From a virus, in IMG/VR virus record IMGVR_UViG_3300025759_000413, positions 1-31,390 of that record: a stretch of DNA of 31,390 bases. The stretch is one strand, 5' to 3'. The notes beneath the pieces were generated by a model, which saw nothing but the letters and a program-made list of their open reading frames with translations, made no database searches and was not told where the DNA came from. Positions within the stretch are counted from its first letter, which is position 1. Each line of letters opens with the position of its first letter. Shown one piece after another: positions 7,223 through 30,800 of the stretch. The position numbers and the translations under genes were made by a program.

Positions 7223-9761
7223 TTCGCAGCAGGGCCTGCTCTTGCAGCTTTGGCGTCCTGTGCTTCTTGAGAAGATCAGCCATGATCTTTGGGTTTTGCG
7301 CGGCATGCTCAAGGATCTTTATGGTTTTGTTGAACGGGTTTTTGGCCAATATCTTCCTGAACATCAGCGAGCCTTTACCGGCGGCAACCAGTTGCGCCCC
7401 CGTTGTTTTACCCGCCAGCATTGCGCCAAACTTTGCGCCCTGAATCCTGATCATGGTGTCTAGCAATTCTGCCCCCTCTGGGCCATCACCAATATCCCCT
7501 GCCCGAGAAGACGCTTTTGCGATATTCTGCTCTATAGTTGACGCCCTCCGCAGGAGATCCCTGAATCGTGATGCATCACCACTTTTCATCACGCCATTTT
7601 GTGTCATCATCTTGATCACATCATCAGCGTTCTGTTGCAGCATGTCAAACGTGCTTGACCTGGAGATGACGTTTTCCAGAGCTGCAGTCCTAAGCCCCTC
7701 AACTGCGTCCGGGCCTGCCTTCTTGGCTGTATTAGCAAGCTCTTTGAAGCCTCGCTGCGGATTCTTTCCTGTAATGACCGATCCAATCGCCCGAGCAGGG
7801 TCTTCGGCCTTCATCACCTCAGATATCGCACTTCTTTGCAGCATCTTGTTCCTCAGTACAGCCTGAGACTTAACGCGGCGCAGTATCTCAGTCCTTGCCT
7901 GAGAGTTCTCTAGCGTGTCTCGCAGCTCAGGGAAACGCTGCAGCAACTTCTTGTTCTTGCGCAGAAACTCTGTAGCTCCCTCTTTGATTGTGCCGTCGCT
8001 TTTAACGAAGCGTTCCGACAACCCAACCAGGAACCTTTCCTGCTCTGCTCGCATAGACTTGGCAAGATCATCGCCAGCCATAGCAGCAGCAGACTCTAGC
8101 TCACCGAATCTGCGGTTGGCGGTAGGGCCTCCACCAGTGGGACCACCAAAGCCTCTAGTAAGCAATTCCCTGTCTGAGATAACCCTCTCCCCAGAACCTG
8201 TTGTCCTTGTCGACCTGCCAGCAAATGTCTGGTCGTACCCCCTTTTGATAGACGCGGTAAACGCTCGCGCTTCATCGTATCCTGGCAGGCCAGCCATGTC
8301 GTCCATCACAGCGTCAGCTAATTGGTTGTACATTCTTGCGGCCGCAAAGTTCGGGGTGGCCCCTGTTCGGGCGGAACGTGCATTCTCCAGCAAAACGCTG
8401 CGCAAGGTTTGCAGGTCTTTCGCTTTCAGGTGCGGCTTCTGCCTGTATCTGGACAACAACTTCCGCACGCCCGGCTTGAGCGTGTCGTCCAAAATCTCTT
8501 TCGGCACCTCCGCTTGCATTTCCTTCCACGCCCGACCAGTATTGACCGCCACTGCATCCGCCTCGGCAGGGACCTTGCTCCACTTAATCGACTCCTCAGC
8601 CTTCAACTTCTTAAAAGCGGTGGACAGCAAGTCTGCCGCATCCTCGCCAGCAGTCTCTGCGTCCTTTCCGCCGCGCAGCGGTGCAGATGCTCCAGCAGCC
8701 TTCTTCTGCGCAGCATTCAGCGTGCGCTTTACAGCGTCATCATAAGCGCCTGCCCGCATAGCTGCAGCCATCTTCAGGGCTTGAGGGTCGCCAGTCCTTG
8801 CCAGACGCTCAATAAGCCCGGACATCTCCTCTACCGCGTTCTTGTTCATCTCGCCTAAAGCCTTGTCTACGTCAGCATCCATCTGCCTGATCCAAGACTC
8901 CAACCGTAACAGCCCGTCATCGCCAGACTTTAAGGCCGCAGATTCACCCACATCTTCTGCAGACATGAGCGCCCGGTATACATCGTCCACATTGCCGCCC
9001 TGAGACTCGACCATGTGCCGAGCAATATCTGCCGCCCTGGCCTCTTGTCCAGCTTTAGAGAAGATGCTAAAAACCTTGTTGATTGCCACATTGGCAGACT
9101 TGGCCACCAGCGGAACAAAGGTCGTTGGGGCTAGAGCCCCCGCAGTTGCTCCAAGCATTTGGGTGGTTGCATCACCTGGGTCCATCACTTCTGCAGCCAT
9201 TGCGCCAGCACCAGCACCAAGGCCGGAAGCTGTTTCCACCATCTGAGCATACCTTGGATCTCTTGCGGTAGACTGAACGACATCTTGCGCAATCCGGCCA
9301 ACCGTAGATGTGGCTTGAGGGCCTGTCGTCATAGCCCCCTTAGTAAAGGCCAAGGGTATTGATGCCCCAGCTGCCGCCATAGTTGTCACATCCGCTCCTG
9401 TCTTGGCAATCTCGCCAAAACGTGTGCGCTCATCCATCCCTGCCGGGGTTCCCACGCCAGAGTGAACTGTTCCGTTAAAGCCAGGCACGGTCATGGAAGC
9501 CAGAGCCTCGTCAATGTCATCAGAGGTGGGCAGGAACGCTGGCTCCTTGCCACTTATGGCCTTAGATATGTCTCCGGGCAGTCCAAGGACGCTGGTGCCC
9601 AACTCGACAATAGAGTCAGCGATAGAGCGCGTAATGCCCGCCTTCTCCTTTGGAGCCGCTGTAATGCTGCGAATATGGTCTGCCAAGCGTTTTGCGGCTT
9701 GCGTATCGCCAGCGGCATCGGCCTTCCTAAGCGCGTCATGCAGTCTATTAAGGTCTGTCAT
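7155..9761 (-). CDS. Large putative DNA-ejection (internal virion) protein, P22 gp16 position
   Basis: An 868-residue protein, the last gene of the leftward virion operon. It begins MTDLNRLHDALRKADAAGDTQAAKRLADHIRSI, an N-terminal motif frequent in large phage internal proteins. An Ala/Gly-rich, weakly hydrophobic stretch follows (about residues 115-250), which could interact with membrane. The rest is long and helical, rich in Lys, Glu, Arg and Ala. The position after gp10-like, gp7-like and gp20-like genes, the size and the composition fit the largest ejection protein of podoviruses, which enters the host with the DNA. No lytic transglycosylase motif is recognised. The start overlaps the previous stop (ATGA), and the 3' end overlaps an opposing gene. 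Confidence 0.65.
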   Translation of the reverse strand: MTDLNRLHDALRKADAAGDTQAAKRLADHIRSITAAPKEKAGITRSIADSIVELGTSVLGLPGDISKAISGKEPAFLPTSDDIDEALASMTVPGFNGTVHSGVGTPAGMDERTRFGEIAKTGADVTTMAAAGASIPLAFTKGAMTTGPQATSTVGRIAQDVVQSTARDPRYAQMVETASGLGAGAGAMAAEVMDPGDATTQMLGATAGALAPTTFVPLVAKSANVAINKVFSIFSKAGQEARAADIARHMVESQGGNVDDVYRALMSAEDVGESAALKSGDDGLLRLESWIRQMDADVDKALGEMNKNAVEEMSGLIERLARTGDPQALKMAAAMRAGAYDDAVKRTLNAAQKKAAGASAPLRGGKDAETAGEDAADLLSTAFKKLKAEESIKWSKVPAEADAVAVNTGRAWKEMQAEVPKEILDDTLKPGVRKLLSRYRQKPHLKAKDLQTLRSVLLENARSARTGATPNFAAARMYNQLADAVMDDMAGLPGYDEARAFTASIKRGYDQTFAGRSTRTTGSGERVISDRELLTRGFGGPTGGGPTANRRFGELESAAAMAGDDLAKSMRAEQERFLVGLSERFVKSDGTIKEGATEFLRKNKKLLQRFPELRDTLENSQARTEILRRVKSQAVLRNKMLQRSAISEVMKAEDPARAIGSVITGKNPQRGFKELANTAKKAGPDAVEGLRTAALENVISRSSTFDMLQQNADDVIKMMTQNGVMKSGDASRFRDLLRRASTIEQNIAKASSRAGDIGDGPEGAELLDTMIRIQGAKFGAMLAGKTTGAQLVAAGKGSLMFRKILAKNPFNKTIKILEHAAQNPKIMADLLKKHRTPKLQEQALLRIRASLVAAGLAPADLEVEAEDQ

Positions 9762-11077
9762 TTGTATTTGTCCAAAAGGTCTTGGATGTCGTCTGGGGTT
9801 CCGTCACCATCTTCTTTTTGTTGACCAGAAGACAGCACCGCCTCCACTTGCGCAATGGTGGCACCAAGCTCCCTGACGCTTTTGGCAGCCGCTGTTCTGA
9901 CTGACCGCTCAACGGACGGGTTCTGCGCCAAGGACAGGTCTGTGTCGTACTGTCTTTGCATGTATTCTAAACTTGTCTCTAGCTTCGCCCTGACGCTAGA
10001 TGACGACTTGTACCACGCACCCTCAATGTCTGTAAGGTTCAGCGAGTCGACCTGCATCCTTTCATTTACAGGCACCCTGTCGCTGTTGATGTAGGCCATC
10101 TCTATCTGCTTCTTGAGCCCAGCCATCACCTGTCTGGCGCGAACATTGTCCTCGCCGTTAAATCCTTCTGATGTGAACGTAAAACCCTCACCAGTAGCCT
10201 GCACGCTGGACTCGACCCCGTGCGCCAAGCCCAGTATGTCCTTGCCTTCCAACTGCTTAGGAATGTACGCGGATGGCTTTTCCAGCCCGGCCATTGAAAA
10301 CTCTTCCTCGGGATCGTCTGGCTTGGGCGCATCATAAGGATTGCCCTTCATAATCCATTTGTTCCCATCCTTGACGGCCCTGACAGAGCGACCCTTTGCG
10401 ACACCCAAACGCACAGCCTCTGCCTGATTGGGGTGTCCGTCCACGTTGGAAAGTATGTATTGCTCGCCCTCATCCTCTTCCGCGTCTGCAGAAAACGGAT
10501 TTGTCTTCATTGCAATAGGGTTCATGTTATCGTCAACAGACACTCTGACGCGCTCCCCAGGACGCAGGTTAAGATCCTCAGCCAGTTGTTGTGTTGGAGA
10601 GCCGGGTGTGTTGTCCACTAAAATGATACGTTCTGTCTTCTCCTTTGCGGTGGGCGCCTTCAGGAATCCCTCTGCAATCATCCTCTTTTCTGCGTCAGTC
10701 TTCTGGCTGACAAACTCGTTGAAGTCTGCCGGGGTCTGTATGGATTGCAGTATGGCCTGCACCTCTGGTGATGCGCCCTGCAATAGCGTCTTGGCCTGCT
10801 CTCCGTACTTGATTGGCGTTGCGGGGTCGGATGCCTCTTGCGCCTCAGTTATCTTCTGGTAGATTGACTCCACCTCATTCATCGTATCCCACTGCTTCTT
10901 TATGGAAGCCTCGCGCTCGGCCTTCTCACGCGCCAGCTTGTTCTGCTTCATAATATCAGCAAACTTCTGCCGCTCCATTTCCCTTTCTTCTTGCTTCCAC
11001 TTCTGCTCCTTGCGGTAGTCAGGCGTGGTTTTCTCCATCAGGCCAAGGAAGCCTGGTAAGCTCGAGCTAAATGCCAT
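9758..11077 (-). CDS. Putative ejection/internal virion protein with long N-terminal coiled coil, P22 gp20 position
   Basis: A 439-residue protein. The ATG is preceded by AGAGGAT. After a short hydrophobic start (MAFSSSLPGFLGLMEK), residues 20-90 are a highly charged coiled coil (RKEQKWKQEEREMERQKF...). A central beta-rich part follows (ERIILVDNTPGSPTQQLAEDLNLRPGERVRV), then a helical C-terminus. No enzyme motif is seen. The gene lies between two other large helical virion proteins, 11 bases from one and ATGA-overlapping with the other, which is the layout of the P22 ejection-protein trio. The function is inferred from synteny and fold character only. Confidence 0.6.
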   Translation of the reverse strand: MAFSSSLPGFLGLMEKTTPDYRKEQKWKQEEREMERQKFADIMKQNKLAREKAEREASIKKQWDTMNEVESIYQKITEAQEASDPATPIKYGEQAKTLLQGASPEVQAILQSIQTPADFNEFVSQKTDAEKRMIAEGFLKAPTAKEKTERIILVDNTPGSPTQQLAEDLNLRPGERVRVSVDDNMNPIAMKTNPFSADAEEDEGEQYILSNVDGHPNQAEAVRLGVAKGRSVRAVKDGNKWIMKGNPYDAPKPDDPEEEFSMAGLEKPSAYIPKQLEGKDILGLAHGVESSVQATGEGFTFTSEGFNGEDNVRARQVMAGLKKQIEMAYINSDRVPVNERMQVDSLNLTDIEGAWYKSSSSVRAKLETSLEYMQRQYDTDLSLAQNPSVERSVRTAAAKSVRELGATIAQVEAVLSSGQQKEDGDGTPDDIQDLLDKYK

Positions 11078-11088
11078 TGCTGTATCCT

Positions 11089-14000
11089 CTACTTTTTAGG
11101 CGCTTCTTTTTTGCCAAAGATGCCACCCAGTATATCACCAAGGTTGCTGTACTTACTGTACTGCCCAGCGGCGCTACCAGCACCCATGGCACCATAGATA
11201 TCTGCAGCAACCCCGCCAAGCGTACCCGCACCTGAAGCGGCATTCTGACCAAGCCTTGCAGTCTCAAACAGTTGCTGCCACATTTGCTGGTCGCCGCCCA
11301 TAAGCTCCTGCCAGTATTGAGCCCTGTCCTGCATCTTTTGCTGGTGTTCAGCCATCTTTCTGGCAAACTGCGCCTCGTCCTCAGCGGCCTTTTCACCGAA
11401 GTATTGCCGCCTGACATCCATGCGCTGCTCGTTGCCCGCGAGCTTTCTATCAAACTTGGCTTGATCCTCGGCAAACAGCTCGCTGAATGCCCGCTCTCGG
11501 TTACGCGTTAGTTGATCAAAGGCCATCTGGGCTGCGCTGCCCTGCTCTGCCGCTTGCTGCTGCCTGGTCCCCATGGCCGTATCACGGTCATAAGCACGCC
11601 TCTGCAACTCTTGGGCCAGCCTTGACTGGTTCAGGCCCTCGATGTCGCCCATGGCCCTGACGTAGCTCTTGAACGCGCTATCACGCGCTTCTTGGCTGTT
11701 CAGTCTGCCACGGGCCTTGGACCTGTTTTCAGCCATACGGATGGCATCACCTGTCAGTATATCCCATTCACTGGGCTGACCAGCACCAAACCCGGCTTGG
11801 CTTGGGCCAGCAACCGGGGCATTGGTTGGGTCTGTCAGAGTGGGGCCTGATGGTGCAGCTTGCCGCGTGCCAGGTCGAGTAATCTGCCCATAATTCCAGT
11901 TGCCACCCTGCCCAGCAAAGTCCTGCAGGTTCTGGTAGCCCTGGAATGCCTGCGGGTCTGTCATGCCGCTGCGAACATTGGGCTCGACATTCAGGCCGTA
12001 TAGCGAGGTCGCGCCCTCAATCCAGTCGGGGTCTGTATTCAGGTTCGGGCTGCCAACGCGGGCATCAGGTGTCAGTTGGTTGTTAATAGCATCGGTCAGG
12101 CCGGGTAGCGCACCCTTGCCATGCTCCCAGAATGGTCTTTGCCACTCCTGCAGCTCTCGCTGCCATGCAAGCGCATCCTCTGACGCCTTCTCATAGGCTT
12201 CACCCATCTTATCGGAGGCATACATGTTGATGCCACCCTCAAGGATGCCGCCAAGGTTGGTGCTAATGTTGTTTGTTACTGTGGACAGTATGTCGCCCAG
12301 CCAATCGCCTGGTCCGCTCACGGGGTCCTCCTCGTCACTAACTGGGTCATCGTTGTCATCATTGCCGCCGCCCGGATCAATGATAATGGGCGGGTCTGTT
12401 GGGTCTGGTTCTGGTGTTGGGTCATCATCGTTAATCGGTGGTGGTTCGGGTTCAGGTTGTGGTTCTGGCTCAGGGTCCGGCTCAGGCTCGGGCTCGGGTT
12501 CCGGCTCAGGCGTCACGACAATGGGTGGGAGACCTGGCGGATCATCCTCTGCGGGAGGGGTATCCGTTATGGGCCCAGACGGATTGCTGTCCCCGCCCGT
12601 ATTGCCGCCACCCCCGTCATCTGGGCCGGGCGTAGGGTCTGGATCTGGAAACTGGTCCCACACCCAATCACCCATTGTATCATCCCACGACCATTCACCA
12701 TTATCACTTAACGGTGGCGGCTCCGGGGTGTTGCCGGGGCCCGGCTCCGGGTCAGGCATGGGCGGCGGGTCTGTGACATCGTCATCCAGCATGTCGCCGG
12801 GATCAATCACCACGCCCGTGTCTACATCGCCGTCCCCGGTGTCTGGCTCGGGATCATTCTGGTCCAGTATGTCATCTGGCTGGGGCGGGTTGTTCGGGTC
12901 GTACACCGGACCAGAAACAGGACCGCCCGTGTCCAAGTTGGGGTTCTCCACTATCGGGTCGGTGGGCGCATCCGGGTCTGGGTCATCCTCATCCGGGTCA
13001 GGCACCACAACCACGGGGTTGCCGTTGCCGTCTGTACCGGGCTGCTGTGTGCCGCCTTGTGTTGGGTTGGGATTCCACGCCCCGCCCTCGCCAAACAGGC
13101 CCTCTGCCGCCGCGCCGAGCACGCCCACAGGGATAATGACGTTGCCTATCTGTACGCCAACACTGCCCAGGTTCTCTCCCAGCCAGCCACCAAAGCCGCC
13201 TCCACCAGCATTAGGGTCTGCGCTGGCAACTTCCTCGTTGTAGATGTCCCAAAAGTCCTTGACTTCCTGCCAGTAGGGGTCGTCTAAGTATTCGTCGCCG
13301 CCAAGCAGATCCTGCAGCTCGCCAGTGTCTATATCGACACCTTCAAAGTAGTCGCCTGCAGTCTCTGGATCATCCCAAACTTCGTACTGCTCGCCAGTAA
13401 TGGGGTCGGTAACAAGCGTGCTTTCCCCGAGAGGGTCTATGAGCGGGTCATACCCTTCGTCAGGAACATAAACGGTCTGCAGCCTGCCGTCAGCGTCGTA
13501 AATCTGTATCGGCTTGTATGGCCCCTGCTCGTCATCTGACAGAGCCTCAAAATCCTCTTCCGACAGAACGTCATCCTGCCAGTCCCACTCGCCCTGAGTG
13601 AAGCCATCAGGCGTAATGCTCTCACCCGCAGCATTGGTCCACTTGGTTGTGTCGTTGATGTCAACAACCGTGCCAGACTCATGCTTGGGGGGCTCTGTTG
13701 TCGTGATACCGCTTGCCTCGAGCCACGCATGTAGCTCAGGTGTATCCGGTATAATGCCCAACTGGGCTGCCTGCTGCACCAGCTCAGGCGTATTCGTCGG
13801 AATGGTCTGGATAAACTTCTGTACTGTATCGGCCAAGTCAGGCGGGATGTATACGCCGCCCCAGTTGACGCCAGAGCCCTCTATCCAGCCAGTTTCGCTC
13901 ACCACCTCCCCATCGGGCAGAATGGCCGGGCCGTCATTGCCTACGCCCCCAGGCTGCTGTTCCACGGGGACGCCGCCCCCAGTGCCAACCTCGCCGTTAC

Positions 14001-14367
14001 CGCCGCCACTGCCACCTGTCTCGTAGCCGTCGCTGCCCCATTCCGGCACCACGTAGCCACCAGTCGGGTCGCCCTGCCCCAGATCTGGCTCGCTGACCGT
14101 GGGCGCAATCAGGCTTGGCCTATTGCTCCACTCTTGGTTTGATACAAAGCCATCGCCGTCAGCGTCCACGCCCGGCTCTTGGGATAGCGCCCGCTCGTTG
14201 TGGGCCAACGCCTCCTCCCATGACAGGCTCTGCCGCTGCATAAGCGACTTGATGTTATCGTAGAACGGCTTGAGCTGGGACCATTCGACATCAGTGACCC
14301 AGCCGTCGCCATCTGCGTCAGCGCCAAGGTAGACAGCATGGGCATTCCTTTGTTCGTCTGTTGCCAT
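11089..14367 (-). CDS. Giant putative ejection/virion protein with two EF-hands and a Pro/Glu/Asp tether
   Basis: A 1092-residue protein with three parts. Residues 1-85 contain two perfect calcium-binding EF-hand loops, DADGDGWVTDVE (17-28) and DADGDGFVSNQE (68-79), joined by a helix, as in a paired EF-hand domain. Residues ~90-740 are acidic and disordered-looking, with Gly/Asp/Pro runs and an (EP)n block. Residues ~750-1092 are helical: an AYEKASEDALAWQRELQEWQRPFWEHGKGALPGLTDAI segment resembles the repeat-rich region of phage DNA-transfer proteins, followed by Gln/Arg-rich coiled coil and a Gly/Ala-rich end. Synteny places it at the gp7 position of P22, but it is far longer. Calcium may gate folding or binding; that is inference. 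It starts in a TGATG junction. Confidence 0.7.
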   Translation of the reverse strand: MATDEQRNAHAVYLGADADGDGWVTDVEWSQLKPFYDNIKSLMQRQSLSWEEALAHNERALSQEPGVDADGDGFVSNQEWSNRPSLIAPTVSEPDLGQGDPTGGYVVPEWGSDGYETGGSGGGNGEVGTGGGVPVEQQPGGVGNDGPAILPDGEVVSETGWIEGSGVNWGGVYIPPDLADTVQKFIQTIPTNTPELVQQAAQLGIIPDTPELHAWLEASGITTTEPPKHESGTVVDINDTTKWTNAAGESITPDGFTQGEWDWQDDVLSEEDFEALSDDEQGPYKPIQIYDADGRLQTVYVPDEGYDPLIDPLGESTLVTDPITGEQYEVWDDPETAGDYFEGVDIDTGELQDLLGGDEYLDDPYWQEVKDFWDIYNEEVASADPNAGGGGFGGWLGENLGSVGVQIGNVIIPVGVLGAAAEGLFGEGGAWNPNPTQGGTQQPGTDGNGNPVVVVPDPDEDDPDPDAPTDPIVENPNLDTGGPVSGPVYDPNNPPQPDDILDQNDPEPDTGDGDVDTGVVIDPGDMLDDDVTDPPPMPDPEPGPGNTPEPPPLSDNGEWSWDDTMGDWVWDQFPDPDPTPGPDDGGGGNTGGDSNPSGPITDTPPAEDDPPGLPPIVVTPEPEPEPEPEPDPEPEPQPEPEPPPINDDDPTPEPDPTDPPIIIDPGGGNDDNDDPVSDEEDPVSGPGDWLGDILSTVTNNISTNLGGILEGGINMYASDKMGEAYEKASEDALAWQRELQEWQRPFWEHGKGALPGLTDAINNQLTPDARVGSPNLNTDPDWIEGATSLYGLNVEPNVRSGMTDPQAFQGYQNLQDFAGQGGNWNYGQITRPGTRQAAPSGPTLTDPTNAPVAGPSQAGFGAGQPSEWDILTGDAIRMAENRSKARGRLNSQEARDSAFKSYVRAMGDIEGLNQSRLAQELQRRAYDRDTAMGTRQQQAAEQGSAAQMAFDQLTRNRERAFSELFAEDQAKFDRKLAGNEQRMDVRRQYFGEKAAEDEAQFARKMAEHQQKMQDRAQYWQELMGGDQQMWQQLFETARLGQNAASGAGTLGGVAADIYGAMGAGSAAGQYSKYSNLGDILGGIFGKKEAPKK
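12443..12508 (-). repeat. Imperfect hexamer tandem repeat encoding the Glu-Pro run
   Basis: Eleven consecutive copies of a ggytcn-type 6-mer (read on the plus strand). On the minus strand they encode alternating Glu/Asp/Gln-Pro inside the 1092-residue protein. The copies differ mainly at the third and sixth bases, so the dipeptide is kept while the DNA diverges, which points to selection on the protein. Confidence 0.85.
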
Positions 14368-15539
14368 CAGTCGTTGTCGTACAAGTTAAGACTGAAGCGG
14401 AACGAGCTTACAGCCGTGTTGTTAGTGTCTGTGGAGGCTGTGAAGTAGATAATATCGCCTGACGATAATTTAAACCAGACAGGCTCATTCAACGTGATGT
14501 GGTTCTCGTTAGCGGTATCCATAACGTACCTGAAGACCTCGAATTTAGTGTCCACAGTTCTGTTGTGAACCCACCCTTTAACGGTCACTCTTGGAGAGGA
14601 GCCGCCAGAGATTTTGTTCACGTTGGCAAACAGGAGCTTCGCCACACCGACGGCGTTGCTGGGTGTATGGAACAAAGCCTGTTGTGTCACACCCTGACCT
14701 GCCGGGATATACGCATGTACCCCGCCAGACGAGCTTGATGTGATCGTGATTGCCGCCACGTTAGTATCCGCTGACCCGGATGCAGCGACTGCCACTCGGT
14801 TAATGCCAAGGCCGGAAAATGATGTGGTATCGGGGCTGGAACTGCCCAAAGTGTGCGTGGCTGTCGCAAACTCGCCATTGCTGTCGACGTAATCGAAGTA
14901 GAGTATTGTCGCGCCTGTCGCCCCGCCGCCTGCACCGTCACTGGCTGCCGTATATGCAATAGAAAAAGTCTCGGCTGTGGACAGCACCTCCGGCCCTGTT
15001 GGCTTTGCTGGGTCTGCCGTGATCATTATCTCGTTGTCAGCCGTGTCGATATCGGGCAGGTAGCCGAATTTGGTGTAGTGCCTGATACCGCTTCTTGCGC
15101 CCTTAACAATCTCGTCCTGCGCCGGGGCGTACACCCGCACCACAGACGCGTCTGCGTCCGTGCCAAGCGACTGATTGGCGGCAGCCATTAACTGCCCATA
15201 GGTGCCGTAATAAGTGGTCAGCCTGAAGTAGCTTTGCGCGCTTGCGCCATTGACGTACCTGACCCTGAAGTATCTCCCAGCCTTCCTGGCAACGTGAACC
15301 TCTGCTATGCCTGCCGCGCATTCGTACCCAGCCACAGGATAAGTAGAGTCCCAGTTTGTGCCGTCATTGCTGAAATCAAAGTAGAGCGTTCCTGCAACAT
15401 CAGACTTGCACATGATAAAAGCGTCTGGGTAATTGTTCTGTTCGCCCGTGCCAGTAAAGGTGGCAGCACCAGACAGCGTGGCTGTCGAGCTATTGCCTGT
15501 AGAGTCTACCCCGAAGCCCGCATCACCAAAATGACTCAT
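14367..15539 (-). CDS. Beta-rich virion surface or tail protein
   Basis: A 390-residue protein. ATG 15539 is chosen over the upstream GTGs because it forms an ATGA overlap with the previous stop. Residues ~45-115 (AGTLYFDFSNDGTNWDSTYPVAG...RKAGRYFRVRYVNGASAQSYFRLTTYYG) match a beta-sandwich form seen in many environmental phage virion proteins. The second half is Ser/Thr/Gly-rich beta sequence ending in FRFSLNLYDND. No enzyme motif is visible. Its place between the gp10-like hub genes and the ejection proteins suggests a tail-tip, needle-associated or fibre protein. By position it could stand in for P22 gp26/gp14, but it is not recognisably related to either. Confidence 0.6.
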   Translation of the reverse strand: MSHFGDAGFGVDSTGNSSTATLSGAATFTGTGEQNNYPDAFIMCKSDVAGTLYFDFSNDGTNWDSTYPVAGYECAAGIAEVHVARKAGRYFRVRYVNGASAQSYFRLTTYYGTYGQLMAAANQSLGTDADASVVRVYAPAQDEIVKGARSGIRHYTKFGYLPDIDTADNEIMITADPAKPTGPEVLSTAETFSIAYTAASDGAGGGATGATILYFDYVDSNGEFATATHTLGSSSPDTTSFSGLGINRVAVAASGSADTNVAAITITSSSSGGVHAYIPAGQGVTQQALFHTPSNAVGVAKLLFANVNKISGGSSPRVTVKGWVHNRTVDTKFEVFRYVMDTANENHITLNEPVWFKLSSGDIIYFTASTDTNNTAVSSFRFSLNLYDND

Positions 15540-15931
15540 ATAGGCCACCACTCATTGTCGTCTTCATCAAACTCAAGCGTAGGGCAATCCCCTACCGTAT
15601 TGATGATCAGCGTGGATGCCCCTGTAGGGCCGTAAGTCTTGCCGTTAAAGTCGATAGTGACTTGTGCATCTGTTCTTTTTACCGATACTTGGGCTTGGTC
15701 TTCAGGGAAGTCCACCATAGTAACGGTAGCTGCTGACGTATTGGCCATGGTTACGCTTTCGTATCTCACTTCCCCGGTAATGTTGTAATCGCCAGTCTGC
15801 CGGGTTTTGAACCTGGATGCCAGCCAATACAGATCAACCAGAACCTCACGAATCTCCTGCAACTGTACCTCGGTAGACCTGCGGCCTATCTGCTGCAGGC
15901 GGGCATTGATATTGCGTATGCGTCTAGCCAC
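15536..15931 (-). CDS. Small virion-associated protein downstream of the gp10-like hub
   Basis: About 131 residues. The frame is open to 16006. GTG 15931 (VARRIRNINARLQQI) is preferred because it has GAGGTG a few bases upstream and overlaps the hub gene by only 8 bases; ATG 15952 is the alternative. The N-terminal 50 residues are a helical, basic coiled coil (INARLQQIGRRSTEVQLQEIREVLVDLYWLASRF). The C-terminal half is beta sequence ending in TLEFDEDDNEWWPI. The helix-then-beta design could be a trimeric stalk with a tip, as in short tail appendages, but no family is recognised. Confidence 0.55.
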   Translation of the reverse strand: MARRIRNINARLQQIGRRSTEVQLQEIREVLVDLYWLASRFKTRQTGDYNITGEVRYESVTMANTSAATVTMVDFPEDQAQVSVKRTDAQVTIDFNGKTYGPTGASTLIINTVGDCPTLEFDEDDNEWWPI

Positions 15932-18752
15932 CCAGCACCTCGAAGTCTCCATCCACTGCCACGATGTCAACACCAGCATTGGCAGAGCATGAGAAACGGA
16001 ATACACCCTCCCTGAACTTGCCCCACCTATTTAGCTCTCTTGTCTCAAGCCCGCTATTGACTGTCAGGGTGCGGCTTTGGGCAAAGGCTGACCCGTCCTT
16101 AGACAAGGTAACGGTAATCGTGGTGCTGTCTGTGGTGCAATCCGTTGTGATCTTCAGCCCGTTGCAGATTAACTCATCACCCGCTGCGCCACCATCAAAC
16201 AACTCCGCTGTAATGGGACCGCTGTCCTTGGTTCTGACCATGTTCGCACTGTTGTCCTGGTACGTCCCTTCTGACAACTCCCAGATGTTGCTGTTCCACA
16301 AGGCAAGCGTTTTGTTGTATACGTTGGTGTACTCCACGGTCTTGTATCGCGTGCCATCGCTTGCTTGGCGCTCAGACCATTCCTGGCTGTCAACATGGTA
16401 CGTCCAGTGCTTGTCAGCAGAAGGGAAGATAAAGTCCACAAAGGTCTGCTGCCTGTAGCTGTAGGTGGTCACAATGCAGTCAGAGATCGTATTGTACGCC
16501 TCCCATGCCTCAGCCACGCCGGGTTGGTAAATGGGCTGGTATTGCAGGCCAGACATCATGTTGGGACGCCTGAACTGGTCAACAAAGAAGATCATGTCAT
16601 CTATGCTGTCTACAGCGTGAGTGCCCACTAACCCACGCTCAATAACCTGCTGCCTCTCAATGGGCGGCCTGCCCGTGCCGGATGTGTAATAGACTTCTGT
16701 GCTGTTCTCGCCAAATGCATACAGCAACTGGTTGTGGGCAAACATTCTAACAATGTCGTCAGCAAATGATTCGGCCTCAAGAACATCGTCTGCGCTGTAG
16801 CTGGTGGCGTCATTGTTGGCAGAAGCGATCAGTTTACCATCTGCCTGATCCAGATAGAATGCCAGATCCAGGTATGCGCTCGACTTGGCCGTGTCTTCTA
16901 CGTCTGCATCCGTAATTGTGGTCAGCCCGCCCGCCACGGTATAGCGATAGATTGTCCCGCCCGATGAGCCCGTGGTGATCAGCAACTGCACACCGTCTGT
17001 CTCCATGACCACCCTGTCAGACCCGGCGATAGTGCCAATACTGGTGGCAACCCCTATGTTTGAGATGCTGTATAGGGTGGTGTCCCAGATGGCGTACAGG
17101 ATACCATCCATAGCCAGCATACCCCTGGCTACTTTGCTGTCCTGCCCGAGGCTGTAGGTGGTGGACAATGCCAGCTGGTCAATGTCGCTGGATCTGTCCG
17201 TGTCAAAGTTACTGAGATAGAGCTTGTTGCCGCTATCACCGAAAGAAATGCCCACATCCGAGAACTGGACAAACGCAATGGTAGTCCACGCCTCGCCTGT
17301 AGCTGATGTCATGGCAAACGTGATCCAGTTGGCACTGACCGGACCTTCGTGATCCCTGGCATCCAGTTGCGCTGTTGGCGTGACCGTGGCATCTGTGCCG
17401 CCAATCAGGCTGACCGAGTTCATTTCTCCATCAAACCAGTTGCTACCACCAAGCAGGGCTCCAACCTCTAGCCTGCTGCTGTTTAGCCTAGCCATGGTTG
17501 ATTCCCCATGGGCCTGCGTAGCCCCTAGCTGTGACCATGACACGGACCCAACAGCCGTTTTGCGGGGGTCCGTGCTAGTATAAAACAGCACGTTACTGCC
17601 AGACCATGTTACGCGAACCCACAGACCGCCGCCACTGCCCGGCCATGAAGGCGTGGCGGATGAGGTGGATGTTGCAGTCGCTGACGTACCGTTGGACGAG
17701 GACCCGAATTCCAGGTTCCCGCTGGTATCAATGCCGAAGTACCAGTCCTTTGTGCTGCCGCCTTGCCACATGGACATGATGGTATTGAGGGACGCGGGCG
17801 TTTCGTCGTCTGGGGCAACCCATGCCACAACCGTGAAGTCGTCATCTGTGAAGTAATAGTTGCTGCTGAATGCCGTGTAAGCTGACCGGGAAGTGCCATC
17901 GAAGGTAAACGTCGGCACATTGATGCTGGTGTGCGTGTCAAACGTTGAGACGATCTGCGCTGTAGCAATGTCTGTGCTGTCAGTTATCCTGTATTCACGC
18001 TGCAGCTCGCTGGACGCCGTGTTTATAATCAGCGTTGAGTCATCCGCAGAGATGTCGATGCCCACGGGCGTCATGTTCGTCAGATTGCCGAGGTCCAGAT
18101 AGGTGTCATCATACGTGGCAGTGGACAGGTCATACGCCGACGACAGGCTGTACTGCAGCACGGCCTGCACCGTGGTGGACACGATACCGCCTAAACGGCT
18201 GGGAGCATACAACTTGGTTCCGTCGCTATTAAAAGTAAACGTATACGGAAACCCCCCAGCGGGTATCTCGCCAGTCATGTCCAGGGACACAGAGTCGTAG
18301 GACAGGGATGTTGTGTCGTATGCCGGAGATAGTGTGTATTGGTAGATGTTGCGGTCAGCATCGCACACATACAGCTTCGTGCCGTCGCCATTAAAGTTAA
18401 ACCCCGTGGGCACTGGGGTGGGGTGGGTCAAGGCTGTGGCCGTTAAGGCTCCAATCGTAGCCATATCCCATGCGCCTGACAGGGCCGCCTCTTCGATCTG
18501 GTCATTGGTTTGATCCAGAAAAAACACCTTTGTGCCAGCGCTGTTAAACCTGATGTCGCGTATAGCCTCGCTAGATACGCCTTGGTTTTTGGTAAACGTA
18601 GCGGCACCTTCCGTGTCGGCGTAGAACGCTGCCAAGCCCGGAAACTGCCTGTAACCGCGCTTGGTCGCAGGATACATGTTGATCGTGCGCTGCTCGGTAG
18701 TGGCAAGCCGAGTGCTGCCGTAGTTGCTGTTCAGCGGTACGGGGAGTCTCAC
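15924..18752 (-). CDS. P22 gp10-like packaged-DNA stabilisation/tail hub protein with inserted domains
   Basis: A 942-residue protein, about twice the length of P22 gp10 (472). Start is GTG 18752 in a GTGA overlap, with GAGGTG upstream. The N-terminus MRLPVPLNSNYGS...QRTINMYPA and the C-terminal half (LLYAFGENSTEVYYTSGTGRPPIERQ, MIFFVDQFRRPNMMSG, then TKDSGPITAELFDGG...ELNRWGKFREGVFRFSCSANA) follow the gp10 family. Between them lie at least four 'F-DGTKLY...YSLS-AYD' beta-propeller-like repeats (about 64-272), a LamG/concanavalin-like domain (about 281-490) and a further propeller-like blade (500-540). gp10 seals the neck and carries fibre attachments in P22. The insertions probably project from the neck, which is inference. 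Confidence 0.8.
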   Translation of the reverse strand: MRLPVPLNSNYGSTRLATTEQRTINMYPATKRGYRQFPGLAAFYADTEGAATFTKNQGVSSEAIRDIRFNSAGTKVFFLDQTNDQIEEAALSGAWDMATIGALTATALTHPTPVPTGFNFNGDGTKLYVCDADRNIYQYTLSPAYDTTSLSYDSVSLDMTGEIPAGGFPYTFTFNSDGTKLYAPSRLGGIVSTTVQAVLQYSLSSAYDLSTATYDDTYLDLGNLTNMTPVGIDISADDSTLIINTASSELQREYRITDSTDIATAQIVSTFDTHTSINVPTFTFDGTSRSAYTAFSSNYYFTDDDFTVVAWVAPDDETPASLNTIMSMWQGGSTKDWYFGIDTSGNLEFGSSSNGTSATATSTSSATPSWPGSGGGLWVRVTWSGSNVLFYTSTDPRKTAVGSVSWSQLGATQAHGESTMARLNSSRLEVGALLGGSNWFDGEMNSVSLIGGTDATVTPTAQLDARDHEGPVSANWITFAMTSATGEAWTTIAFVQFSDVGISFGDSGNKLYLSNFDTDRSSDIDQLALSTTYSLGQDSKVARGMLAMDGILYAIWDTTLYSISNIGVATSIGTIAGSDRVVMETDGVQLLITTGSSGGTIYRYTVAGGLTTITDADVEDTAKSSAYLDLAFYLDQADGKLIASANNDATSYSADDVLEAESFADDIVRMFAHNQLLYAFGENSTEVYYTSGTGRPPIERQQVIERGLVGTHAVDSIDDMIFFVDQFRRPNMMSGLQYQPIYQPGVAEAWEAYNTISDCIVTTYSYRQQTFVDFIFPSADKHWTYHVDSQEWSERQASDGTRYKTVEYTNVYNKTLALWNSNIWELSEGTYQDNSANMVRTKDSGPITAELFDGGAAGDELICNGLKITTDCTTDSTTITVTLSKDGSAFAQSRTLTVNSGLETRELNRWGKFREGVFRFSCSANAGVDIVAVDGDFEVLGG
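17283..17912 (-). other. LamG/concanavalin-like module inserted in the gp10-like hub
   Basis: Residues 281-490 of the hub. Landmarks, in the same order as two copies in the tail fibre gene (30000-30635 and 28968-29594), are: F-x-DGTS at the start, a W-x(4-6)-TPAS-N-x-I/M-x-S/A-x-W/F segment, FGIDTSGNLEF-SSNGT, GGLWVRVTWSGSNVLFYTSTD, SVSWSQLG, LEVGALLGGSNWFDGEMNSVSLI, and an end block L-DARDHEG...W-T-A-TGEAWT. The shared spacing marks one mobile domain type. Confidence 0.75.
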
Positions 18753-18919
18753 TTGGGCTTCACCTCAAAGTCATGGTCATCTTCTTCTGCCGCGATGGAC
18801 ATGCCCGCACAGGTGCGCACGATGTCGTCCATGCTCATCTTGACAATCTGTTTCCCCTTCCTGACCTTGAACTTCCCGTCCTGGTCAGGCTTTGGGTCTT
18901 TGCGCTTCTTACGAGCCAT
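18749..18919 (-). CDS. Small basic-to-acidic protein between gp4-like and gp10-like genes
   Basis: A 55-residue protein from ATG 18919 (MARKKRKDPKPDQDGKFKVRKGKQIVKMS). The N-terminal half is strongly basic and the C-terminal half acidic (AAEEDDHDFEVKPK). It overlaps the upstream stop by 11 bases and the next gene by GTGA, so it is translated with the neck genes. A DNA- or capsid-binding accessory is plausible, but no family is known to me. Confidence 0.6.
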   Translation of the reverse strand: MARKKRKDPKPDQDGKFKVRKGKQIVKMSMDDIVRTCAGMSIAAEEDDHDFEVKPK

Positions 18920-19871
18920 ATGGGCTGTATCCAAAGTAAACAGAGGCATCGTCCATGTCCCAGCCTTCCAGCAATTCCTTGGTCTGGGCTGCCGTCATCA
19001 ACACTTCCTGGGGTACGGCAATGCCGTACAAGGGGGCTATGCGCACTGCAAGGTTATACACCAAGTATTCCATCCACTCCTGCGGGAAGTTGCTGGTGTC
19101 CGTGTTGGCGGAAATGATCTCAAGCTCGTCCAGATACGTGAGCCTAACCACATCATCAACGGTGCTGGGGGCGGGCCACAAGTACATCACGCCAGCGGCT
19201 TGCTGGGGGTCATAGTAATACTGCACCGGGGTGCCCGTGGCCGTCTTGTTGGGCAGGTTGAAGTATTCCTCTCGAGACAGCATGTGCATCTCGATCTCAT
19301 TGCCGCCATTCTCGCGTCTGGCACTAATCACCTTGAGGGGTCTTGGGCCCGCCGTCGTATACCAGTACACCTTATTGCCAGAGCTGGCCGCACCCGTGAG
19401 GGCGTCATTCAGCGTAACTGTATCGCCCGCAGAGAACGTGCTTATAGTGGACCAGTGAATTGTGTCGTCGTCCTGCACCACCCCTATCACATCGCTGGCA
19501 GCCATAGCCACATCTGTATGCTTGGTGCTGTCGGTGGTGGCTGTTACACTCAGCACCGTCTGCCCTGATGCCTCGTCTGCATCCAGCGTGGTTTCCCCAA
19601 TCTCATCTTCATCAGCAAAGCGTGCGCCCGCCAATTTGTATTGGGCTATACTGTCCTCCAGAAACAGCCTTGCTTCACGCTGCCTCCAAAGACCGAGCCT
19701 CATCTGCTCAGACTTGATCATCAGGTTCAGGGACTCGAGGATCTGGTCCTCTTCCCCGCCAGATGTGGTATCAAGGGTTTCGTCTACCCCAATGATCTTG
19801 ATCAGCCTGGCTGCATGTTCTGCGATCTGCGCGCCTGTTCTGTCGTATGCTGTTACGCCTGATGTTGCCAT
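18909..19871 (-). CDS. P22 gp4-like head-completion (neck adaptor) protein with inserted beta module
   Basis: A 320-residue protein, starting in a TAATG junction. Residues ~10-90 (AEHAARLIKIIGVDETLDT...ESLNLMIKSEQMRLGLWRQREARLFL) are the helical start typical of gp4-type adaptors that bind below the portal. The C-terminal part (VQYYYDPQQAAGVMYLWPAP...RLTYLDELEIIS...FPQEWMEYLVYNLAVRIAPLYGI) also fits the gp4/head-tail adaptor pattern. Between them, residues ~92-172 form an extra beta module (TTLDADEASGQTVLSVTATT...STISTFSAGDTVTLNDAL) absent from P22 gp4 (166 residues) and shared with the upstream gene product. It joins portal and gp10-like hub. The adaptor call is good; the module's role is unknown. 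Confidence 0.8.
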   Translation of the reverse strand: MATSGVTAYDRTGAQIAEHAARLIKIIGVDETLDTTSGGEEDQILESLNLMIKSEQMRLGLWRQREARLFLEDSIAQYKLAGARFADEDEIGETTLDADEASGQTVLSVTATTDSTKHTDVAMAASDVIGVVQDDDTIHWSTISTFSAGDTVTLNDALTGAASSGNKVYWYTTAGPRPLKVISARRENGGNEIEMHMLSREEYFNLPNKTATGTPVQYYYDPQQAAGVMYLWPAPSTVDDVVRLTYLDELEIISANTDTSNFPQEWMEYLVYNLAVRIAPLYGIAVPQEVLMTAAQTKELLEGWDMDDASVYFGYSPYGS

Positions 19872-23000: not shown

Positions 23001-23774
23001 TTATGCCTCGTTGTAGAGCCTCAAGTACTCTTCTTTGGTGAAATTGGGGTTGTCTCGGTTAAACCGCTCATAGGCCGCTTTGGCTTCTGGCGGTAACTGG
23101 GAAAACTCCCCGACTGTGCCGCTGGCTGTTTCGCCATCGACTGGGCCCAGATGAGTCCGGGCTTGGAGATGAGTCTGGCGTACCGCCTTGTCGGCAGCCG
23201 CTACAGCTTCCTCAAAACTCAATCCTCGCTCTCCTTGGTATCGCAATTCCTCCTGCCATGCTTGCGCTTTAGCGGCGGTATCAAACAGCTCTGGATGCGC
23301 TTGCTGGTGTTCCTGAAGTCGCTGCACCACAGGATTGACCTCGGGCTGCGGCGGAATGATGGGTTCCGCTTGAGCCTTGTCTCTCTGCTCGGCAAGCTGA
23401 TCAGCGCGCTTGGATGCTGCTGCAAATGCTTCACCATCGGACTCTTCTACTGCTCGTTGCATCTCCGCTTTAGCGTCGGCTATTGCCTTGTCGTAGCCAC
23501 GCTTCATCGCATCTGCACGGGATTTTTCCATGTGTTCAGCCATTGCCTTCTGGACTGCTATTGACTCTGCCAGTTGCTGCTCCAGCTTCTTCACATCTCC
23601 ACGCAGTAGGCCCAGGTGATCCTCTCGCTTGGATAAAAACTCCTCAGCCGATAGACCACCGTCCTTCTCGTACCACCCTACAGCGGAGGCACGTTCTTCT
23701 GGGGAAAGGGCTGCGCCTTGGGCGTCTAAATTCTCCTCCCCCGGAATATGGGTTCCTTGTTCTGCTTCGCTCAT
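23001..23774 (-). CDS. Scaffolding protein
   Basis: A 257-residue protein, acidic and almost wholly helical. Residues ~50-150 form a coiled coil (LGLLRGDVKKLEQQLAESIAVQKAMAEHMEKSRADAMKRG), followed by a Pro-rich break (EPIIPPQPEVNP) and a C-terminal helical region ending FNRDNPNFTKEEYLRLYNEA. The position between portal/co-chaperonin and the major capsid gene, the length, and the composition are those of podovirus scaffolds, which direct procapsid assembly and then leave. The ATG starts in open sequence, and its stop lies one base before the next gene. It overlaps the upstream co-chaperonin gene by ATGA. Confidence 0.8.
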   Translation of the reverse strand: MSEAEQGTHIPGEENLDAQGAALSPEERASAVGWYEKDGGLSAEEFLSKREDHLGLLRGDVKKLEQQLAESIAVQKAMAEHMEKSRADAMKRGYDKAIADAKAEMQRAVEESDGEAFAAASKRADQLAEQRDKAQAEPIIPPQPEVNPVVQRLQEHQQAHPELFDTAAKAQAWQEELRYQGERGLSFEEAVAAADKAVRQTHLQARTHLGPVDGETASGTVGEFSQLPPEAKAAYERFNRDNPNFTKEEYLRLYNEA

Positions 23775-24151
23775 ACCTTGACTCCTGCAATCTCTTTATC
23801 GTTGAATATCATGTACGGTTCACCGTCATCACCGACAAAGCGAAGTCCTGCGAACTCTTTAGTTACAACCCTGTCTCCAGGTTTTGGCTTGATGGCCCAT
23901 GAGATGAGTTCTCCGTTGGCCCTGCGTCCGTCTGTGAACGCCAGCTCTCCGTGAGAAACAATAACCCCAGTCTGAACATTCCATTCCTCCTGGTCCTTTG
24001 CTTCCGTAGGCACGTAAATCCCACCTGATGTCACCTCCTCCACTTTGTCCTTCTTGATGATAACCTTGTAGTCCAGCGCCTGCCAGCCACTTTTGTTGCC
24101 ATCAAACTCAGCGTCGGTGATGGTTAAGCCACGTTTGCTCCTATCTTTCAT
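23771..24151 (-). CDS. GroES-like co-chaperonin (Cpn10 fold)
   Basis: A 126-residue protein. After a 22-residue N-terminal extension the GroES pattern appears: YKVIIKKDKVEEVTSGGIYVPTEAKDQEEWNVQTGVIVSHGE (strand, mobile loop with GGI at 43-45, then the G-V-V-x-G strand), and KPGDRVVTKEFAGLRFVGDDGEPYMIFNDKEIAGVKV (GD-V, AG, EPYMIF, the final 'I-A-V' strand). The central stretch is a few residues longer than in E. coli GroES. It is ATGA-coupled to the scaffold gene below and to a small gene above, within the head operon. By analogy with T4 gp31 it probably pairs with host GroEL to fold the capsid protein; that role is inferred, the family is clear. Confidence 0.87.
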   Translation of the reverse strand: MKDRSKRGLTITDAEFDGNKSGWQALDYKVIIKKDKVEEVTSGGIYVPTEAKDQEEWNVQTGVIVSHGELAFTDGRRANGELISWAIKPKPGDRVVTKEFAGLRFVGDDGEPYMIFNDKEIAGVKV

Positions 24152-27873: not shown

Positions 27874-30800
27874 AGTGTTGCTACCTGCGCGTCAGTGAGC
27901 CGCTTGTTGAATATCTTGACGTTGCGGATTGTGCCGTAGGGTTGCGCTCCGCTGGCGTTATTGGCTCCAATTTGTATGGTTGTAGGAGGGTCGGGATCAG
28001 GAGTTACGTCTGTATCTGCCGCGCCCTGTGATAAACCATCTATATAGAGTTGTGCGTCATTCGTGAACGAAACAAAGGTAATGGACTGCGTGACCCCTAT
28101 GATTGAATCGTTTGTGGCAGTTTCAACCGCCTTGTTTGTGCCATCCGAAGAAACAACACCAGTTATAGAGCCGTCGCTACCTGTCTCAATGTAAACAGGC
28201 TCATTAGAATCACCATCATGGATAGACAGCACTTGGGTGTTGGTTGAAATCTGCCCCGGCGTGTACTCCAAATGCTGAGTTCGACCATACGGAGCATTCC
28301 CCACTGCGCTATAGGTCAGAACATCAGCATTGCGTGTGGCGCTGGTAGTTGTGGTAGGGATGTAGGTGGTGGGGAAGGAGCCGGATTCTACTTGTGCGCC
28401 CCATACGAGGATTGAGGAGGTGCCGTCTAGGTCTACTGTAGTGCTTCCGTCCGTTGACGCAACGTGGATTCTAGCAGTACCAGCAAGGTCGGAAGTAGTT
28501 GTGAATGTTACTGCTACACGATAATAACCATAAGCCGTTGGCACCGGGTCGTGAACCGTATGGTTTGATGAAACAGTACCCCACGCCCCAGTAGACATAT
28601 TGAAATAGGACAACCCGTTGGCCGTTCCATCAAAATTTTCAATTCTGATAACACACATGCCTAACTGGTCGGCTTTGACGTGCCAACTGTATGTTGATGC
28701 CCCGCTACTAACAGTCAGGTTTTGCTGCAAACTAACAACCCCTGTTCCAGTAGCCCCATCATCAATCAGCCTAACCGCCGTCTTTGTCCCATCCGGCGCA
28801 ATGGCGTAGTTCGCCACAGGGGTCGCATTCGTATCCGTCCACGTAGTCCCCAAATTCCCCGGAGTGGAGTACAACGCCAGATTAGTCCCAGCCTGCTCAC
28901 TCAGATACCCCAATGGCCCTGAAGCATCCCAAGGTGACGGGATGTTCTGCTCGATGGAGCAATTTCCATTCTGCGTCCAGACCTCGCCTGTGGAGGCTGT
29001 GGCTGTTGTAACGCCGGGGGTGAAGGTTCTTGCGTCATAATCGACAACAGGGACAGCGGCGGTTGATCCTATCGTTGTAAACAGGGCCATGCGATTTGCG
29101 GTGCCACTCTGAACCAACCCCGTACCTGTTTGCGTCGATCCAACCTCAATGACAGCCGTACTGTCAAACATGCTTGTTATGCTGTTTGTTACAGCAACAG
29201 GATCGCCAAACTGCACCCATGTGATTTCGCTATATGGTGTCCACGGCGAATCGTCGGAAATGTAGAAAGTGACCTCTGCCTCAGAAGCGTCATAGTCTGC
29301 TCTTGCCCAATGAATAGAGCCGTTCTGGAATCCAGTCGCGGCATCGCTTGATGCGGTTCCAGTTGTTGCGCCACCTGTTGCCCCGTTAGAGGATACGGCA
29401 AACCTCAGAGTACCGTCTGCGTTTACGTCGAATATAAAAGTTGCTTGAGAGCCCGTTCCTGTCCACTTGGAAACCATCGCTTGATTTGAAGCGGGAGTCC
29501 AATCATCGAAAGAGCCATTCCAAACTGCGATAAGATCAGTCGTTCCAATATCAACATCAGGCGTAGAGATGTAATCCCCACTCGACCCCGGAAAATCCCC
29601 CCACTTCGCCAGTGGCGAGAAGGCTTTGGCTGTGCCGTTGAGCGTCCAGAGGTCGGGGAGTTCTATGACTGAGATTCCAGAAACTGTGCCATCAAAACTG
29701 GCCGCGCTAAAAAGCATAATCCGATCACTTAACGCTGTTCCGGTGTCTGGAGTGAGGATTATCCTGTAGTCGCCATTAGCGGTAATGTTGGAACTTACAC
29801 CCGCCAAAGCCGATCCATAAATATAGAACTGGAAAGTGCCAGAAGAATAGTTAGAGACAGTGAACTCTACCGCGCAGTTTTTGCCGTTTTTTATACTGCC
29901 CGAATCAAGATCAAACTGTACTTGGGCAGAATTTGTGCCGTCGCATGTGAATGTTCCATCTCCGTTATCAGTCCATCCTGACTGGACGGTATCGGCAACA
30001 CCATCCCATAACTCCCCATTACTCTCCTTCTGGCTCTGAGTCTCCCATGTCACTCCTGCCTCATAGTCATTCGCATTGAAATCGACTACGGGATCAGCAG
30101 TTGGGTCTGTGGATGCGATGACGAGGGCGCGGGAGATTTTGCCTACGCACAAATCAGACGTTCCTGATAGCGTTGATCCTATTTCGATGGATGCCGTGGT
30201 GTCTGCGATTGATGTTGTCCCGCCAACAACTACAGTCTCCCCTAACTGAGTCCATGTGATATTTGACGGACTTGAGTTAATAGGATCATCAGACACATAA
30301 AACGTAACGATGTGACTGCCTGAGCCGTTGTCAACGTCAAGGGTTGCACGAACCCAATGCCCTGTTCTATCGCCAAAGCCTGTCCCTTGCGTGGACACCT
30401 GTCCAATCGTATTGGTTCCGTCTGCTGACCAATAAATGCCCAACGCCCCACCAGATTCCACTCTGAACTGATAGCTGTTATCTGGGTCTGCCTCAAACTT
30501 GGCTACTATTGCGTTATTGCTGCTTGGCGTCCAGTCCTCTAGTGCAAGCCACCCAATTATGGTTATATCACCCGTAACACTATTCGCAGCATTATCAGGC
30601 GTGCTGACATAGCACCCCGAAGTCCCATCCAACTCTACCCACTGGCTCGTTGATGAGTTAATCGCTGGCCCTGTGGCCTCTGTGACTACGCCTGTAGAGG
30701 CTACGGTATTACCATTGTGATAATTGAAAGCCTTGACCCCATCTCGATTGAGGCCGTGGTCGGCTTCTTTGACTGAGATCGAATAGTAACTAACATCTGA

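Follow-up and report, generated by a model that had tools for sequence, protein, structure and literature searches.

The genome fragment analysed here, a 31,390-base virus record of a short-tailed, marine-type phage (hereafter the window), encodes a head-closure hub of 942 aa in a family whose members typically have ~460-480 aa. This raises the question of what the excess consists of, how it is related to the fibre of the same virus, and what it could be doing at the neck. An initial annotation of this DNA had recognized a lectin-like LamG module within the gp10-like neck hub and two copies of the same module in the fibre; its coordinates for the hub module (17283-17912, residues 281-490) and for both fibre segments are right, and both genes lie on the minus strand (Table 1).

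Table 1. Features of the hub and fibre genes of the window, with residue numbers referring to the encoded proteins
Feature	Coordinates	Strand	Basis or remark
Hub gene, gp10/Hc3-type head-closure (neck hub)	15924..18752	minus	942 aa, GTG start
Hub N-terminal stretch, residues 1-49	18606..18752	minus	INMYPA...RQFPG, common to compact homologues (alignments)
Inserted DGTK-repeat β-propeller (predicted), blades 1-4, residues 50-276	17925..18605	minus	AlphaFold pLDDT mostly 60-90
Putative LamG/ConA-like module between propeller blades, residues 281-490	17283..17912	minus	homology to fibre modules
Last propeller blade after LamG, residues 491-540	17133..17282	minus	FGDSGNKLYL repeat
Conserved Hc3/gp10 core, residues 541-942	15927..17132	minus	blastp to compact Hc3 2.7e-26, 1.2e-24
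Fibre protein, 1172 aa	27870..31388	minus	5' end cut by contig edge; PHROG 5939 tail protein 1.3e-38, at the C-terminus
Fibre junction DGVKAFNYHNGNTVASTGVV	30693..30743	minus	site of an extra LamG ("position A") in L015/L016
LamG module D1, fibre residues 252-463	30000..30635	minus	alignment, BLASTP, hhalign, predicted fold
LamG module D2, fibre residues 599-807	28968..29594	minus	alignment, BLASTP, hhalign, VIA-align
GTA head-spike-fibre domain, fibre residues 829-1021	28326..28904	minus	NCBIfam NF048003.1, E 2.1e-31
C-terminal Laminin_G_3, divergent third LamG, fibre residues 1048-1170	27879..28247	minus	PF13385, E 6.6e-10, whole protein

The hub gene and its nested insertion

The assignment of the gene to the gp10/Hc3 family is based on its core, as length does not define the family. 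The PHROG 578 head closure Hc3 profile is matched with E 9.2e-43, covering only hub residues 542-931, and residues 569-756 match two PDB entries, namely the stabilization protein 9vyg_M (1.9e-8) and the needle head 7eeq (2.1e-7), with the solved gp10-type chains aligning from their position 79-83 onward to hub residue 569 onward. Among relatives the core retains 54-86% identity. A gp4-like adaptor gene (18909-19871, minus strand), with above-cut-off matches to P22_Tail-4 (4.3e-5) and SU10_adaptor (2.5e-7), directly precedes the hub gene in the structural cluster. The hub shares with the P22 gp10/Hc3 proteins (PHROG 578; 7eeq, 9vyg) the core, the N-terminal stretch and this placement after a gp4-like adaptor gene, and differs from the compact homologues of seven annotated phages, which have 457-479 aa and lack an insertion, in its ~490 added residues. 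An assembly artefact can be ruled out for the hub gene, since two further contigs carry it, one identical over 2829 nt and the other with a single difference.

In the adaptor itself, known adaptors are matched only from residue 171, and the first 170 residues might be a further dock. Downstream of the hub, the gene at 14367-15551 (minus strand) encodes a protein whose N-terminal part resembles PBSX XepA (NCBIfam 3.1e-7, far below the cut-off), and a GroES/Cpn10-like co-chaperonin gene (23771-24151, minus strand; Pfam 3.4e-12) lies between the portal-like and capsid genes of the structural cluster.

The added residues lie between the core and the N-terminal stretch, whose equivalents in the compact hubs of L039 and L040 read VNCFAEA/VNLFPE...APG. 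The AlphaFold model of the full-length hub resolves only the inserted propeller and some of the core, and failed for the LamG and for residues 616-807. Residues 54-270 and 500-530 form one propeller in this model, which aligns with the Pizza6 propeller at Z 15.9 (VIA-align; rmsd 3.2, 207 aligned, model range 54-529). Given that the modelled propeller closes across the LamG gap, the LamG is an insertion into the propeller itself, placed in the linker before the last blade. In L036, which is devoid of the LamG, the equivalent last blade directly adjoins the rest of the propeller. The insertion noted in the initial annotation is thus real but larger than described, as it includes a β-propeller around the LamG; this nesting had been missed, as had the kinship with an additional module of some fibres and the uneven occurrence of the parts in relatives. 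The accompanying statement that P22 gp10 has no such insertion holds for the compact homologues, a set of seven phages that does not include P22's own protein.

DGTK-type repeats are also present in proteins of Roseobacter (CRP-13 gp43), Lentibacter, Maribacter and Synechococcus phages, of which CRP-13 gp43 reads like a fibre-like protein, judging from its N-terminal sequence. Both the propeller type and the LamG type are found in fibre or fibre-like proteins of other phages.

The LamG modules of neck and fibre

Sequence comparisons show that hub residues 281-490 are homologous to the fibre domains D1 and D2. Each of the two is 30-31% identical to the neck module, and 34 columns are invariant across the three segments (MAFFT). 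BLASTP within the set of open frames links the neck module to D1 (E 8e-20) and D2 (3e-9), and D1 to D2 (4e-27); profile-profile comparison with hhalign gives, for the same pairs, E-values of 2.9e-29, 1.1e-23 and 1e-40 at probabilities of 99.8%, 99.6% and 100%. Against 500 composition-preserving shuffles per pair the corresponding Z-scores are 25, 16 and 31 (0/500 in each case), and segments of the adjoining propeller and the core, compared with these fibre domains as controls, give Z-scores from -1 to 0.2. These shuffles and controls rule out a chance likeness due to Thr/Ser-rich composition, and the sharing of one module by hub and fibre, as initially annotated, is borne out as a relationship beyond composition.

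Taken alone, the neck module matches the Pfam Laminin_G_3 model at E 1.5e-5 (25.6 bits, below the 27.6 cut-off), and a Pfam scan of the whole hub gave no Laminin_G_3 match. Comparison of the neck LamG with annotated phages yielded nothing at E 0.01, sequence searches of the PDB with the LamG module and the LamG profile gave no match, and no relative was recovered when 84,980 bacterial and archaeal genomes were searched with the hub and core profiles.

Structure prediction supports a LamG/ConA-like β-sandwich for the fibre modules D1 and D2. In a fold search with a model of D1, linker and D2 (overall pLDDT 67), a laminin LG4-5 pair is recovered over both modules (E 5e-10), along with neurexin LNS domains, pentraxins and the CBM40 of sialidases. 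Alignment of the D2 region by VIA-align gives Z 16.5 for the PTX3 pentraxin domain (rmsd 2.9, 173 aligned) and Z 16.2 for NanC, and the best matches in a viral library are ConA-like/LamG proteins of uncultured phages. Many of the laminin LG, pentraxin and sialidase CBM40 relatives are ligand or glycan binders. For the neck module, modelled at pLDDT <40 in the full-length hub, the LamG/ConA-like fold would follow from homology, so that the lectin fold proposed at the outset is carried by the model for the fibre copies and extended by kinship to the neck. Five aromatic or acidic residues, namely Y292, Y300, D303, W370 and W383, are invariant in the neck copies and nearly absent from the fibre modules, suggesting that the modules of neck and fibre need not bind the same sugar.

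The initial count of two fibre copies is correct for D1 and D2, but the fibre also has a third, divergent LamG at its C-terminus, which shows no shuffle-significant similarity to D1 or to the neck module. The C-terminal part (27879-28904) also includes the GTA head-spike-fibre domain (NF048003.1, 109.8 bits against a cut-off of 36), and the fibre could therefore be a head spike; its C-terminus also has matches among annotated phage tail fibres, including those of Rhodobacter phages. Hence, of the earlier designation "tail fibre", only "fibre" is a safe label, "tail" being unproven given this domain. In GTA the N-terminal peptide of the head-spike fibre sits on the capsid spike base protein; the N-terminus of the window fibre lies beyond the contig edge.

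Two further features of the fibre concern its modular construction. Its last ~130 residues are nearly identical to those of the L026 fibre (8961-13076), with ~50% identity in the remainder, a sequence pattern that would suit a mosaic fibre tip. The spacer between D1 and D2 (29595-29999, minus strand; ~135 residues) is predicted to be β-rich, varies in length among relatives, and is perhaps another β-sandwich module.

Distribution and exchange of the modules among relatives

The hubs of the relatives form a three-step series. Beyond the compact hubs, a second group possesses the propeller without the LamG, namely L030 (703 aa) and L036 (715 aa), with L034, L035 and L038 resembling L036 in the parts compared; the third, with both propeller and LamG and 935-943 aa in length, comprises the window, L005, L006-L008, L011 and L012. 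In a tree of the core, the LamG-less L030 groups with the window and L005 (support 98/100), inside the sampled LamG-bearing set, so that the LamG has been lost or gained more than once. That so close a relative keeps the hub without the LamG also marks the neck LamG as accessory.

In a tree of the modules, the neck copies form a single clade (100/100) and the fibre modules cluster mostly by position. Nearest to the neck clade, with moderate support (84/82), are the position-A modules of the fibres, a kinship that carries no direction of transfer. These modules are present in the L015 and L016 fibres and missing from that of the window: the spacing at the junction is 16 residues in the window fibre and L026, as against 230 in L015 and 221 in L016. 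The L015 A module is also the best single outside match of the neck module (41%). The relatives' contigs are fragments with either hub or fibre modules, not both. On the whole, these sequence relationships suggest that the neck hub has acquired a fibre-type part.

Five distinct hubs keep the LamG in frame at 62-80% identity, and a near-identical pair does so at 94%. Between lineages the LamG retains 62-76% identity, against 49-59% for the surrounding propeller and 61-73% for the core up to residue 840; that it is better kept than the propeller argues for a function. Between the window and L005 it is less well kept (79% against 86%). The near-identical hubs of L011 (928-3738) and L012 (1497-4307) differ in sharp tracts, with 0 differences in the first 1092 nt, 25% of nucleotides changed over codons 395-486, and none over codons 487-569. 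The changes in codons 395-486 are mostly synonymous, and this tract, in the second half of the module, ends at the LamG border. Such a pattern would fit recombination covering half of the LamG, or a chimeric metagenome assembly; retroelement hypervariation is ruled out, since the changes are mostly synonymous and bounded.

Possible roles of the neck module

The best overall explanation, to which we give a probability of roughly one half, is that of a hub with nested cargo, in which the LamG serves as an auxiliary appendage for presumed adhesion to glycans. In P22-type tube B the conserved part forms the channel lining rather than an exposed surface (PMC10386132), and SU10 has the blades beside its N-terminal entry directed away from the tail axis (PMC9509320); by analogy, the insertion is most likely outward-facing. 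The DGTK-repeat propeller would have come first, into the loop that joins the N-terminal strand to the core, and the LamG/ConA-like module would then have entered one of the propeller's inter-blade linkers. The core would seal and guide the DNA, like that of other gp10-type hubs, with the propeller as a stalk that displays the LamG outside the hub. If the hub is hexameric, as its relatives are, its six copies per virion would place weak glycan-binding sites in a ring close to the portal vertex, and these sites may help to hold the virion on the polysaccharide surface of the cell, after or besides binding by the fibre.

Protein-protein contacts are another use of LamG/ConA-like folds, and the propeller-LamG might instead be a docking or clamping part that holds a fibre or spike on the hub through contact between modules or stiffens the hexamer, with no contact to the host. 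Such a role has a precedent in SU10, where a loop of the hub propeller docks the short tail fibres and inserted Ig-like domains touch them (PMC9509320). It would also account for the neck LamG being the best kept inserted part across distant lineages, which is unusual for a host-range domain, and for invariant residues that differ from those of the fibre. We regard docking as the main rival, but a less likely one: L030 keeps its hub without a LamG, and the 25% nucleotide difference that sets L011 and L012 apart in the second half of the module fits an exposed, exchangeable part better.

Virion β-sandwich decorations, including Ig-like ones, are commonly discussed as weak glycan binders, and the neck module could in principle bind environmental glycans (particles, mucus-like polymers) and thereby keep virions near their hosts without being receptor-binding. 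The slow change of the LamG between lineages would suit this proposal, but its sister modules belong to the fibre, usually a host-binding part, and we consider it unlikely. An improbable reading is that the hub doubles as a receptor-binding protein, the fibre-derived LamG on its propeller stalk sensing a surface glycan beside the channel and perhaps coupling this contact directly to the opening of the hub. It is likewise improbable that illegitimate recombination dropped a fibre module into the hub, where it persists as a functionless passenger: modular exchange is frequent here, as in the extra fibre module at a clean junction, the recombination tract stopping at the LamG border and the LamG-less L030, but five distinct hubs hold the LamG in frame and better kept than the propeller between lineages, and two successive insertions at one place favour use.

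Adhesion through the LamG appendage would add a second tier to that of the fibre. The two-tier design envisaged in the initial annotation is plausible, and as a design it is not new, since the 936 lactococcal phages have carbohydrate-binding modules on the neck passage structure, the major tail protein and Dit, and in tests one neck and one tail module bound host cells (PMC6669499). The likeness would lie in related modules of carbohydrate-binding type on the neck and on a host-contacting appendage, the homologous modules here being known from the hub and fibre genes. The 936 phages, however, are siphophages whose carrier is a separate accessory collar protein rather than a gp10-type hub, and the accessible part of PMC6669499 describes no counterpart of the nesting of a LamG in a propeller.

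The nozzle and muzzle proteins of SU10 and crAss001 likewise combine a hexameric β-propeller hub with β-sandwich domains at the propeller openings, but these are Ig-like domains, located between or in blades 2-3, which form the tail end (PMC9509320, PMC10172136). The window hub has its insert ahead of the core propeller, in the form of a second propeller that carries a fibre-related LamG. RcGTA particles have two adhesins at separate sites, a head spike fibre and a tail fibre, which bind the same capsule, and the window fibre has the GTA_spike_fiber domain; the two RcGTA adhesins, however, share no detectable homology and neither is a neck hub (PMC10218006). A broader parallel is offered by domain mosaicism in phages, where receptor-binding domains occur in other protein classes, recently shuffled, and neck passage structures are among the examples (PMC10684548). 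The neck case in the accessible part of that source concerns a neck passage structure protein whose C-terminus has been exchanged, and that part mentions no LamG in a head-closure protein.

A search of the full-text, open-access literature found no report of a LamG in a gp10-type hub. What is new is the LamG inside such a hub, its nesting in a second propeller, and its kinship with a module of the virus's own fibre. Together these point to a route by which an essential channel protein may become a display platform, namely successive nested insertions at one outward-facing loop, with a lectin-type neck module and the virus's own fibre drawing on one pool. If the neck module binds a host glycan, receptor-binding functions could also be sought in the necks of short-tailed phages, and gp10-type hubs that are length outliers in metagenomes would provide a cheap search handle for them.
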